Positions 51,458 to 56,411 of a stretch of DNA of 64,000 nt are shown here, piece by piece; the first letter of the stretch is position 1, and every line of letters starts with the position of its first letter. Both the position numbers and the translations under genes were made by a program. Source of the stretch: Prauserella alba (GTDB lineage Bacteria; Actinomycetota; Actinomycetes; Mycobacteriales; Pseudonocardiaceae); the NCBI RefSeq assembly GCF_024171735.1, contig NZ_JAMTCH010000003.1:1476841-1540840 (forward strand), given 5' to 3'. Under the pieces are notes generated by a model, which saw only the letters and a list, made by a program, of their open reading frames with translations, was not told the origin of the DNA and made no database searches.

Positions 51458-52714
51458 TCACCTCTCGTCGTGTCGGATCGTCGGGCCATCGCCGGCGCCT
51501 GCGGGTTCGGCGCCTGCGGTGTCGTCGTCACGGGACTCGTCGTGCCCCGCGGCGAACGGATCGGGGTAGTGATGCCAGGCCTCCGGTCCTTCGGCGAGTT
51601 CGGCGTCGGTGAGGAGTGCCCCGCGCAGGGTGCGGTCGATGTCGGCCGGATCGGCCCGATGGGCGAGCACGGCGAGTTCCTGCACGCGGTCACCCCACAC
51701 CGGGTCCCAGCGGAGCGCGGCGAAGGTGCGGCGTTCCGGCGAGACGTCGTCCCAGCCGGGACCGTGCGGCGAGTCCAGCCAGCTGCCGGCGAGGCGGATG
51801 CCCAGACCACCGCCCGCGGACTCGACCCACAGGTGATCGTCGGGCCTGCCCGCCAGCCACGCGCGGCCCCGCGTGCGCACGACACCGTCGAGCAGGACGT
51901 CCAGTGCCTCGTGCAGCCGTTGCGGATGGAACGGGCGCTGCGCGGTGAACGTCAGGAACGTGACGCCGCAGTCCGGGTCGAGCGGCGGCTGTCCGGTCAC
52001 CAGCGGACCGTGCGGGTCGCGGGGCGTTCCCCGGTGGCCGTCGCCGGGCACGGCGCCCAGTAGCCGGGCGGTGTCGGCGCCGCAGAGGTCCAGCAGCGCC
52101 GCGCGCGGTGCCAGCCGCTGGAGGACGGCGCCGGTGCGGGCCGCGGTCCAGGCGTCGGGAGCCTCGCCCGCCAGCACGAGGACGTCGGCGAACTCCGCCT
52201 GGGCCACCGCCACCTGGGCCAGGGTCCGGTCGTCGTCGGGCCCGGCGTGGAGGTCGAGTTCGCCGAGCGCCGCGTCGCCGGTGGCCGCCCCGAGCCAGGA
52301 TTCCTGGTCGATCGCCGTGATCACGGCCTCCACCTCGACGTCCGCTGTGATGGGTGTGTCGTCAACGAGGGCCGTGTGCAGTTCGCGGCACACCAACTCC
52401 GGCTCCAGTGCCTCGTCCAACCGGACGACGATGCGTTCCACCTCGGGCCTGCGGGACAGCGCACGCAGGAGCGGCAGCAGGTCCTGGCGCAGCGTGCAGG
52501 ACACGCACCCGTGGTCGAGCGGCACGCTCCCGATCCGTTCCGCCGAGCCGAGGCGGACGAGCCGCCGGATGACGCCGTCGTCGGCGTGGCGCAGGTCGTG
52601 GTGGACGAGGGCGGTCCCGGGGGTGTCGGCGGTGAGCCGGTCGGCGAGCAGCCGGACCGGCGGCTCGGCGAGACCGGTGAGCAGGACCAGGGGTGTGCGG
52701 TGCGGATCGATCAC
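51458..52714 (-). CDS. mrf: CobW-like GTPase family protein, ribosome hibernation factor-recruiting MRF
   Basis: A 418-residue CobW/COG0523-like protein matching MRF, the mycobacterial protein that recruits the hibernation factor Mpy to zinc-poor ribosomes. The [13 protein letters not shown] motif corresponds to the GCxxC metal site of the family. The N-terminus reads [19 protein letters not shown]-like sequence ([13 protein letters not shown]) where a Walker A loop is expected, so nucleotide binding may be lost or altered. The last 40 residues are acidic and His-containing. It is upstream of L31 and divergent from the L28 operon, with a Zur-type box between. Confidence 0.88.
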
Positions 52715-52764
52715 GTCGTGTACTGTAAATGAAAACGATTATCAACACCAACTAGGGAGGGTCG
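52715..52764. promoter_or_regulatory. zur box: Zur-box-like operator between divergent zinc-response operons
   Basis: TGAAAACGATTATCA (52730-52744) is an imperfect palindrome very close to actinobacterial Zur boxes, inside a 50-bp gap between mrf and rpmB. The AT-rich core also supplies promoter sequence. By analogy with mycobacteria and Streptomyces, zinc-loaded Zur represses both operons here. Confidence 0.85.
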
Positions 52765-53001
52765 ATGTCGTCGATCTGCCAGGTCACCGGCCGCGCGCCG
52801 GGCTATGGCAAGCAGGTCTCGCACTCGCACCGGCGCACGTCGCGGCGCTGGGAACCGAACATCCAGAAGCGCCGTTACTGGGTTCCGTCGGAGAACCGCT
52901 GGGTCCGGATCCGGGTCTCGGTGAAGGGCATGAAGACGATCGACAAGCGCGGGATCGACGCCGTCGTGGCGGACCTGCGCTCGCGAGGGGAGAAGCTCTG
53001 A
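52765..53001 (+). CDS. rpmB: 50S ribosomal protein L28, zinc-free paralogue
   Basis: A 78-residue L28: [33 protein letters not shown] is the standard start. Only one cysteine remains, so no zinc site can form. It heads a four-protein set (L28, L33, S14, S18) of zinc-free paralogues, downstream of the Zur-like box. AGGGAGG precedes ATG 52765. The stop overlaps the L33 start (TGATG). Confidence 0.97.
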
Positions 53002-53168
53002 TGGCGAGCACCACCGACGTGCGCCCGATCGTCAAGCTGCGGTCCACGGCGGGGACCGGCTACACGTACGTGACCCGCAAGAACCGGCGCAATGATCCCG
53101 ACCGCATGGTGCTGCGCAAGTACGACCCCGTCGCGCGCAAGCACGTCGAGTTCAGGGAGGAGCGTTGA
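53001..53168 (+). CDS. rpmG: 50S ribosomal protein L33, zinc-free paralogue
   Basis: A 55-residue L33 with the conserved [26 protein letters not shown] core and no cysteines. ATG 53001 overlaps the L28 stop. Its own stop overlaps a small ORF start (TGATG) instead of S14, because a 152-bp repeat block separates it from S14. Confidence 0.97.
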
Positions 53169-53322
53169 TGAGTGACGATCGCGGAGCCCCCTGCTCGTCG
53201 GCGCGACCGGGTGCGGGTGTCCCGCAAGACGCAGGAGCGCTGATGAGTGACGATCGCGGAGCCCCCTGCTCGTCGGCGCGACCGGGTGCGGGTGTCCCGC
53301 AAGACACCGAGGAGCGTTGATG
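53157..53322 (+). repeat. 75-bp tandem duplication between L33 and S14
   Basis: A 63-bp core is repeated identically at 53168-53230 and 53243-53305. The junction GAGGAGCGTTGATG at 53157-53170 recurs at 53309-53322, with a near copy (CAGGAGCGCTGATG) at 53232-53245. Each junction has a ribosome site and an ATG, so the array keeps translation coupled from L33 through to S14. Confidence 0.9.
53168..53320 (+). CDS. Possible 50-residue duplicated small protein between L33 and S14
   Basis: An open frame starting at an ATG that overlaps the L33 stop and ending with a TGA that overlaps the S14 start. It encodes two copies of a 25-residue unit, [20 protein letters not shown] followed by DAGAL in copy 1 and DTEER in copy 2. 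Each unit has one Cys and its own ATG (53168 and 53243) with a GGAGCG-type site. Coupling suggests it is translated. I recognise no family; the peptide may only be a by-product of a repeat that preserves ribosome passage. Confidence 0.45.
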
Positions 53323-53625
53323 GCCAAGAAGTCGAAGATCGCGAAGAACGAACGGCGCAAGGTCGTCGCGGCGCGTCATGCCGAACGTCGTGCGGCGCTC
53401 AAGGAGACGATCCGTTCGCCGCGGAGCAGCCCGGAGCAGAAGAGCGCAGCCGTGTCGGCGTTGCAGCAGCTGCCGCGTGATGCGAGCCCGACGCGGATCC
53501 GGAACCGTGACGCCGTCGACGGCCGTCCGCGCGCCTACTACGGCGCCTTCGGTCTCTCCCGGATCCGGTTGCGCGAGATGGCCCACCGGGGCGAGCTGCC
53601 GGGTGTGAGCAAGTCGAGCTGGTAG
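53320..53625 (+). CDS. rpsN: 30S ribosomal protein S14, zinc-free paralogue
   Basis: A 101-residue long-form S14: [13 protein letters not shown] at the start and [33 protein letters not shown] at the end. It lacks the CxxC pairs of the short zinc form. ATG 53320 shares a base with the stop of the duplicated small ORF; GAGGAG lies just upstream. It takes over from the zinc S14 when zinc is scarce. Confidence 0.97.
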
Positions 53626-53635
53626 GAGGAGATCA

Positions 53636-53866
53636 GTGAAGCCTGCACCGCAGAAGCGCCGCAAGCGGAACCTGCTGCGCGCCGAGGGTGTCGAGTTCGT
53701 CGACTGGAAGGACACCGCTCTGCTGCGGAAGTTCGTGTCCGACCGTGGCAAGATCCGCGCCCGACGGATCACCGGCCTGACGCCGAGGGAGCAGAAGGAC
53801 GTCGCGCGGGCGATCAAGAACGCCCGAGAGATGGCATTGCTGCCTTATCCCGTGAAGAAGGGCTGA
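53636..53866 (+). CDS. rpsR: 30S ribosomal protein S18, zinc-free paralogue
   Basis: A 76-residue S18 with the [29 protein letters not shown] core. It has no cysteines, unlike the primary actinobacterial S18. GTG 53636 follows AGGAGG about 8 bases upstream. It is last in the Zur-type operon, followed by a strong hairpin. Confidence 0.97.
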
Positions 53867-53871
53867 GCACT

Positions 53872-53909
53872 CCACGTTCCGGCGCCGGGCGCTGTGCGCC
53901 GGAACGTGG
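53872..53909 (+). terminator. Terminator of the L28-S18 operon
   Basis: Perfect 14-bp arms CCACGTTCCGGCGC (53872-53885) and GCGCCGGAACGTGG (53896-53909) around a 10-base loop, 5 bp after the S18 stop. Confidence 0.75.
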
Positions 53910-53921
53910 CACCCTGGCCGC

Positions 53922-54374
53922 ATGACGGAGCGGCAGCGAGACACCGCACCCGGTGGGGCCGGCAGCGCCGGAGGGCCGCCCGCCGCGGCGTGCGAGATCG
54001 ACCCGGAGCTGCTGGAACTCGCGGCGCGCGTGTTCGACTTCGCACGTGGCGGTGAGACCGACACGCTGGCCGCCTACGTCGACGCGGGTGTGCCGGTGAA
54101 CCTGTCCAACGACAGCGGTGACACGTTGGTGATGCTCGCCGCGTACCACGGCCACGCCGGGACGGTCGCCGCACTGCTGCAGCGGGGTGCCGATCCCGAC
54201 CGGCTCAACGACCGCGGCCAGAGTCCCCTGGCCGGTGCCGTGTTCAAGGGCGAGGCCGACGTGGTGCGTGCGCTGCTCGACGGCGGAGCCGATCCGGAGG
54301 CCGGTCAACCCACCGCGGTGGAGACCGCTCGGATGTTCGGGGCAGAGGAACTGCTCACGTTGCGTGGGCCCTGA
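53922..54374 (+). CDS. Ankyrin repeat protein
   Basis: A 150-residue soluble protein with about three ankyrin repeats: DTLVMLAAYHGHAGTVAALLQRGADPDRLND and GQSPLAGAVFKGEADVVRALLDGGADPEAG are clear, preceded by a degenerate first repeat. The N-terminal 30 residues are Gly/Ala-rich. It is probably a protein-binding scaffold; its partner is unknown. It lies between the Zur-type operon terminator and the siroheme gene and appears to be transcribed on its own or with cobA. Confidence 0.9.
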   Translation: MTERQRDTAPGGAGSAGGPPAAACEIDPELLELAARVFDFARGGETDTLAAYVDAGVPVNLSNDSGDTLVMLAAYHGHAGTVAALLQRGADPDRLNDRGQSPLAGAVFKGEADVVRALLDGGADPEAGQPTAVETARMFGAEELLTLRGP

Positions 54375-54401
54375 GCGCATCGACCGGACAGGATATGCGT
54401 C

Positions 54402-55661
54402 ATGCTGACTGGCATGGCGCAGGAGGAGCACTACCTGGTCGGACTCGACCTCACCGGACGGCGCGTGGTCGTCGTGGGCGGCGGCACCGTCGCTCAGCGG
54501 CGGCTGCCACGCCTGGTCAAGGCGGGAGCCGTCATCGAACTCGTCTCCCCGGACACGACCCCGTCGGTCGGGGCGATGGCGGACGAGGGTGAGATCACCT
54601 GGACCCGGCGGGAGTACACCGACGGTGATCTCGCCGACGCCTGGTACGCCCTGGCCTGTACGGACGACGCCGAGGTCAACGCCGCGGTGTGCGCCGAGGC
54701 CGACCGCAGGCGGATCTTCTGCGTGCGCGCCGACTCCGGCCCCGACGGCAGTGCCGTGACACCGGCCGTGGGCGGCAACGACGGCGTGCTCGTGGGCGTG
54801 CTGTCCGGTGGCGAACCGCAGCGCTCCGCCGTTGTGCGCGACAGTCTGCTGGACGCGTTGCGCTCCGGCGCCGCGGCGGATCCCGGGCCCGGCTACGGCC
54901 ACGACGCGGCCGACGGCCTCCGCCGTCCCGACCCCGGTGTGGCGCTGGTCGGTGGTGGACCCGGCGACGCCGAGCTGATCACCGTGCGCGGCCGCAGGCT
55001 GCTGGCACGCGCCGACGTGGTCGTCGTCGACCGGCTCGCGCCGCGCGAACTGCTCGACGAACTGCCGCCGCACGTCCAGGTGATCGACGCGGCGAAGATC
55101 CCTTACGGCCGCGCGGCCAGCCAGGACGTCATCAACAGCGCACTGATCGACAACGCGAAGGCCGGCAAGTTCGTCGTCCGTCTCAAAGGCGGCGACCCGT
55201 ACGTGTTCGGCCGCGGTTTCGAAGAGCTGCTCGCCTGTGCGGAAGCCGGGGTGGCCGTGTCGGTCGTCCCCGGCATCACCAGCGCGTTCGCCGTTCCGGC
55301 TCTGGCCGACGTGCCGGTGACCCACCGCGGTGTCACGCACGAGGTCGTCGTCGTGTCGGGGCATGTGCCGCCGGACCACGAGACGTCCCTGACCGACTGG
55401 GATGCCCTGGGCCGCATGCGCGGCACGATCGTGCTGATGATGGGCGTCGAGCGCATCGACCGGTTCGCCGATGCGCTGATGACCGCGGGCAGGCCGGGTG
55501 ACACTCCGGTCGCGATGATCCAGGACGGCACCATGCGCACGCAGAAGGTGTTGCGTTCGACGCTGAAGGAAGTGGGCGCGGACGCCGCTCGGGAGGGGAT
55601 GCGGCCGCCCGCGGTGACGGTGATCGGCCCGGTCGTCGACCTGCTCGGTCAGGAGTCCTGA
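54402..55661 (+). CDS. cobA: Siroheme synthase-type uroporphyrinogen-III C-methyltransferase
   Basis: A 419-residue bifunctional protein. The N-terminal part (about 8-150) is a precorrin-2 dehydrogenase-like NAD domain (RRVVVVGGGTVAQRRLPRLVKAGA). The C-terminal part (about 180-415) is uroporphyrinogen-III methyltransferase (ALVGGGPGDAELITVRG, KGGDPYVFGRGFEE, VPGITSAFAVPALADVPVTHR). It makes precorrin-2 and sirohydrochlorin on the way to siroheme and B12. ATG 54402 has AGGA 9 bases upstream; ATG 54414 is a possible internal start. It links loosely with bluB at 31 kb. Confidence 0.94.
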   Translation: MLTGMAQEEHYLVGLDLTGRRVVVVGGGTVAQRRLPRLVKAGAVIELVSPDTTPSVGAMADEGEITWTRREYTDGDLADAWYALACTDDAEVNAAVCAEADRRRIFCVRADSGPDGSAVTPAVGGNDGVLVGVLSGGEPQRSAVVRDSLLDALRSGAAADPGPGYGHDAADGLRRPDPGVALVGGGPGDAELITVRGRRLLARADVVVVDRLAPRELLDELPPHVQVIDAAKIPYGRAASQDVINSALIDNAKAGKFVVRLKGGDPYVFGRGFEELLACAEAGVAVSVVPGITSAFAVPALADVPVTHRGVTHEVVVVSGHVPPDHETSLTDWDALGRMRGTIVLMMGVERIDRFADALMTAGRPGDTPVAMIQDGTMRTQKVLRSTLKEVGADAAREGMRPPAVTVIGPVVDLLGQES

Positions 55662-55961: not shown

Positions 55962-56017
55962 CCTCATGGCCTCATGGCCTCATGGCCTCATGGCCTCATG
56001 GCCTCATGGCCTCGTGG
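55962..56017. repeat. Seven tandem copies of CCTCATGG
   Basis: Six identical copies and a seventh with G for A, in perfect register. Because 8 is not a multiple of 3, each change in copy number would shift any reading frame crossing it. Confidence 0.95.
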
Positions 56018-56265
56018 TCACGGGTTCGCGGTGTCGGTGTGGGGCGGCCGTGTCCGCGGCGCCGGTGCCCTCCGGCGTGCCGTTCCGCTGCCGCGATGCG
56101 TTCGTCGATCGAGGGTCCGGTGTCGTCCCCGCCCGCGCCCTTGTCGTCTTCGAGTCGGTGTTGTCTCCCAGCCGGTGCCGTCTCCGAGTCGTGGTCGGCG
56201 TGTGGCCGCAGCCGACGGTGCCGCGGTCGGTCCCGGCGTCCGGCGGCGCCGGGCGCGAGTTCGCA

Positions 56266-56349
56266 GCAGCGTCCCCCGGATGCACGACACGCGCCCCTGG
56301 ATTCGCAACACGCGCCCCCGGATGCGCAACACGCGCCCTTGGAGGCGCA
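56266..56349. repeat. About four tandem copies of a 21-bp unit
   Basis: Units start near 56266, 56287, 56308 and 56329. The last three begin ACACGCGCCC and end with GCA; the first is more degenerate. A partial unit follows at 56350. The period is a multiple of 3, giving seven-residue repeats in all frames. Confidence 0.85.
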
Positions 56350-56411
56350 ACACGGGCTGGGTCTGGAACCGGCGTGCGGCGGTGCGTTGTGCATTCGCGT
56401 CCCGCACACGG

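Follow-up and report, generated by a model that had tools for sequence, protein, structure and literature searches.

A tandem repeat between the L33 and S14 genes of Prauserella alba belongs to a dispersed element family with an antisense arm matched to its own insertion site

The stretch of DNA analysed here (the window) comprises 64,000 nt of the Prauserella alba genome (assembly GCF_024171735.1, contig NZ_JAMTCH010000003.1, positions 1,476,841 to 1,540,840). Pfam and NCBIfam searches identify an operon in the order L28-L33-S14-S18, with a divergent gene for an MRF-type GTPase. On the + strand lie paralogues of rpmB (ribosomal protein L28, 52765..53001; PF00830, E 1.4e-26; TIGR00009), rpmG (L33, 53001..53168; PF00471; TIGR01023) and rpsN (S14, 53320..53625; PF00253; NF006477). 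A palindrome of Zur type, TGAAAACGATTATCA, was located upstream of the operon at 52730..52744 (no strand assigned). We take this palindrome to be a Zur box, through which the operon is presumably Zur-regulated; the gene set and the Zur-type box are those of the known Zur-regulated operon of paralogous ribosomal proteins. In two loci from other genera (L296, L297), S14 is preceded by the sequence TGAAAACGATAATCA. Downstream of the operon, at 55962-56354, the window contains arrays of 8-bp (CCTCATGG) and 21/42-bp tandem repeats.

Between L33 and S14, TRF and a repeat search of the window mark a tandem repeat at 53157-53322 with a period of 75 bp (score 304). Its copies at 53158-53230 and 53233-53305 are 99% identical over 73 nt, with one difference, and share a 63-bp core (53168-53230 and 53243-53305) that occurs twice in the whole window, both times on the + strand. 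This bears out the 75-bp duplication with identical 63-bp cores described in a first-pass annotation of the sequence. The L33 stop codon, TGA at 53166-53168, overlaps the repeat's first ATG at 53168 (TGATG, 53166-53170). From there a small ORF of 50 codons runs over both copies (53168..53320, + strand) and ends in a TGA (53318-53320) that overlaps the S14 ATG at 53320 (TGATG, 53318-53322). The two units measure 75 nt (53158..53232) and 77 nt (53233..53309, the next AGGAGCG beginning at 53310), and it is this sum that keeps the final stop of the small ORF on the S14 start. Because the first copy has no in-frame stop, in contrast to a related genome in which each unit has its own (G006), a single 50-aa ORF spans both. 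The further claim of that annotation, that stop/start coupling is kept by a 50-residue ORF bridging the two genes, therefore holds. A known Rfam element was set aside: the three matches up to E 5 within 52500-54500 do not overlap 53157-53322, and five loci of the element gave zero matches up to E 0.1.

The first-pass annotation had also proposed comparing copy number at this locus in relatives. Made between species of the window's genus, this comparison finds the element at the L33-S14 junction in five of seven genomes, with one unit in two of them (G003, G004) and two units in three (G000, G002, G006). The block is missing from G005, which keeps L33 and S14 and lacks the small ORF, and in G001 L33 is absent at the S14 junction. 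As a side observation, the two units of G002 persist behind L33 though a full-length S14 was not found in that genome, and the start codon of the first unit there reads ACG (L030). Outside the genus, an S14 match was found in 82 of 120 genomes of the taxonomic family, and we read 26 of the loci listed, recognizing the L33 tail by eye in most. L33 overlaps S14 as TGATG in 22 of these, is separated from it by a 3-nt gap in two and is missing before S14 in two. The adjacency of L33 and S14 that had been asserted for other actinobacteria is thus found in 24 of 26 family loci, and none of the 24 has the element or any other insert between the two genes. Relative to the operon elsewhere, the element is an insertion in the window's genus.

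The first-pass annotation overlooked that the repeat is dispersed, both elsewhere in the window's genome and in other genera. Searching with the core word and allowing up to three mismatches, we found 45 places across all seven genus genomes, and the reversed-word control gave none in any of them. Thirty of these places were read by eye, and all showed a copy at a gene start or junction except L028, a 3-mismatch match. Matches listed for named genomes cover at least 119 stretches with the core word, with titles including Amycolatopsis, Nocardia, Saccharopolyspora, Prauserella, Saccharomonospora, Skermania, Myceligenerans and Antribacter; some of these stretches (e.g. L075, L121) do not resemble the full unit. 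A covariance model, R1, matches the two window copies at 53160-53233 (E 1.2e-15) and 53235-53308 (E 3.4e-16) and has six matches in the window's own genome. Under strict filters, at which weak matches are lost, R1 was found in 10 of 150 genomes at the order level (E<=0.001) and in 12 of 201 Mycobacteriaceae genomes (E<=0.01), two of the latter at just E 0.003-0.007. Elsewhere the element precedes genes that, on reading the flanks, we take to be glutamate-synthase-like and pheT-like, as well as other unrelated genes. Literature searches turned up no description of this repeat family. A phage-borne element was set aside, as phages gave no element match and viral contigs no exact match; among plasmids, the element is present in one Nocardia farcinica record. 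Neither a transposase nor a self-mobile version of the element came to light in this analysis.

These dispersed copies contradict a local duplication as the whole account of the repeat. The window does hold two near-identical tandem copies, as a neutral local duplication with no wider meaning would leave, and the tandem step alone may be neutral. The unit is nevertheless spread over other loci and genera, with an antisense arm matched to each locus (below), and we give the purely local reading almost no credence. For the same reason, and given the single copies at the junction in G003 and G004, the recent unequal amplification proposed in the first-pass annotation is not supported as an origin from the junction alone; the tandem step itself may be such an amplification or a re-insertion.

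Several variants of the element were noted in passing. One genome (G176; L203, L211, L217, L219, L221, L223-L227) has 20 R1 matches with short loops, and the flank of one of its loci, L217, matches a Skermania record (L052). In another (G108; L176, L184, L189), three copies lie off start codons, in frame within genes that read as polyketide synthases; they follow a GAGGAGG motif behind an FGISGTNAH-type KS end, add residues in frame and may have spread with module duplication. At L025, L031 and L199, the core contains an additional hairpin (GGGCCCCCG..GCGGGGAGGG or similar), which makes a longer subtype; at L025 and L031 this form is in tandem with the short one.

The typical unit of the family is built around a copy of the site at which it lies. 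In order, it consists of a target copy (SD, spacer and start), a GACAATCGCGGAGC-like loop, an antisense arm, a core hairpin (TGCGGG-TGT-CCCGCA) and a spacer, followed by another target copy. In the first window unit (53158..53232, + strand), the target arm GCGTTGATGAGT at 53162..53173, which covers the SD tail, spacer and start codon, pairs with the antisense arm GCTCGTCGGCGC at 53193..53204 over 12 of 12 positions (8 Watson-Crick and 4 G.U), and the core hairpin follows at 53212..53226. In the second (53233..53309, + strand), the target arm GCGCTGATGAGT at 53237..53248 pairs with the arm at 53268..53279, again over 12 of 12 positions (9 Watson-Crick and 3 G.U), with the core hairpin at 53287..53301. 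A third, downstream target copy, AGGAGCGTTGATG at 53310..53322 on the same strand, is the SD and start of S14 itself. The first-pass observation that the junction sequence had become part of the repeat was correct, and its basis is that a copy of the target is built into the unit. Of the eight copies at the L33-S14 junction across the genus, six have a fully paired stem and the other two a single mismatch each.

To quantify this arrangement across the family, we reduced 169 extracted copies to 83 by requiring a loop-motif score of at least 9 of 14, one of five spacings and one copy per locus. Start-to-start spacing is mostly 69-77 nt, with a maximum of 101 in the set measured. Most copies are flanked by a target duplication: in 54 of the 83 filtered copies, the two flanks share a run of 12 or more identical nucleotides, against 2.1 when flanks are swapped, and the corresponding figures for the full 169 extracted copies are 75 and 2.2. 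In 18 of the 83, there is no flanking shared stretch of 8 nt. The antisense arm follows the individual site. For the 83 elements, which were selected without using the stem, the complementarity score between arm and own site is 8.28, compared with 4.65 for swapped sites and a maximum of 5.16 in 2000 swaps, and a site's own arm is best or tied-best in 51 of 83 cases. All 169 extracted copies behave similarly, with a longest arm match of 6.59 against 4.86 (range 4.70-5.03 in 20 swaps).

The stem also covaries. We aligned 56 of the 83 copies, hand-picked from spacings 27, 28 and 30, with spacings 31 (the window's class) and 39 and ten others left out. In this alignment, both sides of the stem change at 10 of 12 pairs, and double-changed cells number 127 compared with 44.5 in shuffles. 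Paired cells make up 93.3% including the core helix and 89.9% in the stem alone, against 34-45% when the strands are slid. The core helix is invariant here by construction, the core having served as the search word, so the alignment cannot judge it; among the 45 core-word places of the genus, five show a C-G to U-A double change in this helix, and some of these five may lie at corresponding loci. Over all 83 copies, the 996 stem cells comprise 777 Watson-Crick pairs, 91 G.U, 15 A.C and 113 other combinations, the last mostly in the outer half of the stem. Three swapped sets gave 98-111 G.U and 52-56 A.C, or about two G.U per A.C, compared with six in the real stems. This large excess of G.U over A.C indicates that pairing is by the sense RNA.

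Where the target is duplicated, an arm could pair with the start site upstream or downstream of it, raising the question of whether the element acts as a regulatory RNA switch, in which alternation between the two pairings switches the downstream gene rather than merely relaying ribosomes to it. Folding 191 nt across the junction in the window gives a result in keeping with a switch, with the arms taking the downstream target copies as partners and not the upstream ones. Conservation points the other way: across 69 units, among positions at which the upstream and downstream target copies are not the same, 43 pair just with the upstream copy and three just with the downstream copy; counted up to the start codon, the arm fits upstream in 14 cases and downstream in one. 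A single element serving many unrelated genes also argues against a specific signal, and we regard a switch as unlikely. Folding energies are mixed: taken alone, the two window copies are no more stable than their dinucleotide shuffles (z +0.49 and -0.50), and three other, hand-chosen copies are more stable than theirs (z -3.53, -2.13 and -3.52). Units with identical target copies (9.25 of 12 Watson-Crick, 44 units) and units with diverged copies (9.68 of 12, 25 units) show no clear difference in stem quality, such that age gives no clue to the origin of the arm.

Copies of the element concentrate at translationally coupled gene starts. We counted junctions and core frames in 80 units, 79 of them with enough upstream sequence, and relay frames in 78 distinct units of 92, tandem neighbours included; like the upstream-versus-downstream count, these counts favour copies with a start codon, as units lacking a recognisable start or downstream copy were dropped. 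A frame of at least 100 codons ends within -25 to +15 of the start in 72 of 79 filtered copies, 56 of them in an exact RTGA overlap. For positions drawn at random within these loci, the mean is 7.9 (range 3-14). The distance from start to start, taken modulo 3, is 2 in 54 units, 0 in 18 and 1 in 6, placing 24 of 78 outside the relay frame. The stop codon of the inner ORF and the start that follows form an RTGA overlap in 47 of 78 units and a TGATG overlap in five; the remaining 26 do neither, and 15 of the 78 have no stop in the range read. This relay-frame bias fits selection for passing ribosomes on from one gene to the next.

The same frames bear on whether the ORF encodes a functional protein of some 25-50 residues that would be produced alongside the zinc-independent ribosomal proteins during zinc starvation, a reading that goes back to the first-pass annotation. 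The ORF is open, has an SD and coupled start and stop, and lies under a Zur-type box. Most copies of the family preserve its frame, and among the 50 units in relay frame, 43 have the core at offset 0, a uniformity that a conserved peptide would also explain. Over all 80 units, on the other hand, 58 use offset 0 for the core, 21 use offset 1 and one uses offset 2, and the window belongs to the minority at offset 1, along with 20 others. G005 retains L33 and S14 without the ORF, elsewhere the element precedes unrelated genes, and searching Pfam and NCBIfam with the 50-codon peptide gave no match up to E 0.001. On these grounds we set aside a Zur-dependent peptide gene at this locus, which appears quite improbable; in the main subfamily, elsewhere in the element family, the peptide could still have a role.

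Small, tandem-prone interspersed repeats at start codons have been described in mycobacteria as MIRUs. MIRUs are described as inserting at start codons with -4 coupling (PMC12548453), and 77-bp forms are reported (PMC4213456). The element described here shares this logic. It is inserted at coupled start codons (RTGA/DTGA; the 72 of 79 copies above, 56 of them exact), its inner ORF ends on the start of the next gene (47 of 78 as RTGA, plus five as TGATG) and it forms tandem arrays, all of which would suit a true mycobacterial MIRU residing in another genus. We looked for overlap between the two in Mycobacterium, taken here to be the one genus of Mycobacteriaceae to which all PPE-SVP matches (7 of 201 genomes) belong. 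A MIRU word occurs in 63 of 118 of its genomes (control 0). Of 30 MIRU loci read by eye, most lie directly before a start codon and have a constant-looking interior around GATGCAGAGCGnAGCGATGAG, followed by an SD of their own (GGAGGAG); none of the 30 has the core or an obvious target-matched arm. At an M. leprae-like senX3-regX3 junction (G436), a MIRU is likewise present without the core, and MIRU tandem spacing is 46-54 nt among the places listed.

Conversely, R1 matched 30 of 39 Mycobacterium genomes at E 0.006-1 only, and seven of these loci read by eye (the six best, L228-L233, and L244) show no junction element and were taken as chance. The two kinds of repeat also differ in anatomy: the arm of our element follows its own site, in contrast to a MIRU interior that looks constant by eye, and its SD and start are target copies, whereas the MIRU carries its own SD. 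No intermediate sequences linking the two were seen among the loci read. We consequently rejected a MIRU in the strict sense, an identity we hold very improbable. Judged by its sequence, which showed no relation to the mycobacterial MIRU in the loci read, and by its anatomy, the family is not a MIRU, though it appears to work like one.

Other small mobile repeats offer partial parallels. MITEs are very small, lack an enzyme gene and duplicate their target, and the present element is similarly tiny, enzyme-less and target-duplicating. It differs in that the segment it carries in inverted form is a copy of the very site at which it lies, and in that its copies concentrate at coupled starts. IS608 uses guide pairing with its insertion site, and REP/BIME repeats and the hairpin ends of IS200/IS605-type elements resemble the element in placing a hairpin beside a segment that pairs with the insertion site. 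Here, by contrast, the pairing extends over about 12 nt and is locus-specific, and most copies have a target duplication.

We conclude that the repeat between L33 and S14 is probably a coupling cassette, mobile and transparent to translation, that is present here as two copies in tandem. Its mobility, whether present or past, is presumed. In the mRNA, the antisense arm would fold back on the upstream, duplicated start site and hide it from independent initiation. On completing the upstream gene (L33 in the window), a ribosome would melt this hairpin, re-initiate on the small ORF, read through it and stop on the start codon of the next gene, here S14. The element would thus be transparent to coupled translation, and the peptide of the small ORF would be neutral.

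A more far-reaching reading, which we advance tentatively and consider possible rather than likely, is that the family belongs to a class of mobile elements that write an antisense copy of their own target into themselves upon insertion. Each such insertion would place the SD and start of the site in a direct duplicate, together with a complementary RNA arm, and so re-make both the start-codon hairpin and the relay. If true, a self-target-writing element implies an RNA- or hairpin-templated insertion mechanism. To our knowledge, none is known for any small bacterial repeat.

For annotators, these results carry the caution that relay ORFs of this kind should not be named as functional small proteins. 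What looked like a local curiosity of one operon is a widespread actinobacterial repeat family at coupled gene starts, with its relay mostly intact, and its locus-matched antisense arm provides a specific and testable clue to how such repeats spread.
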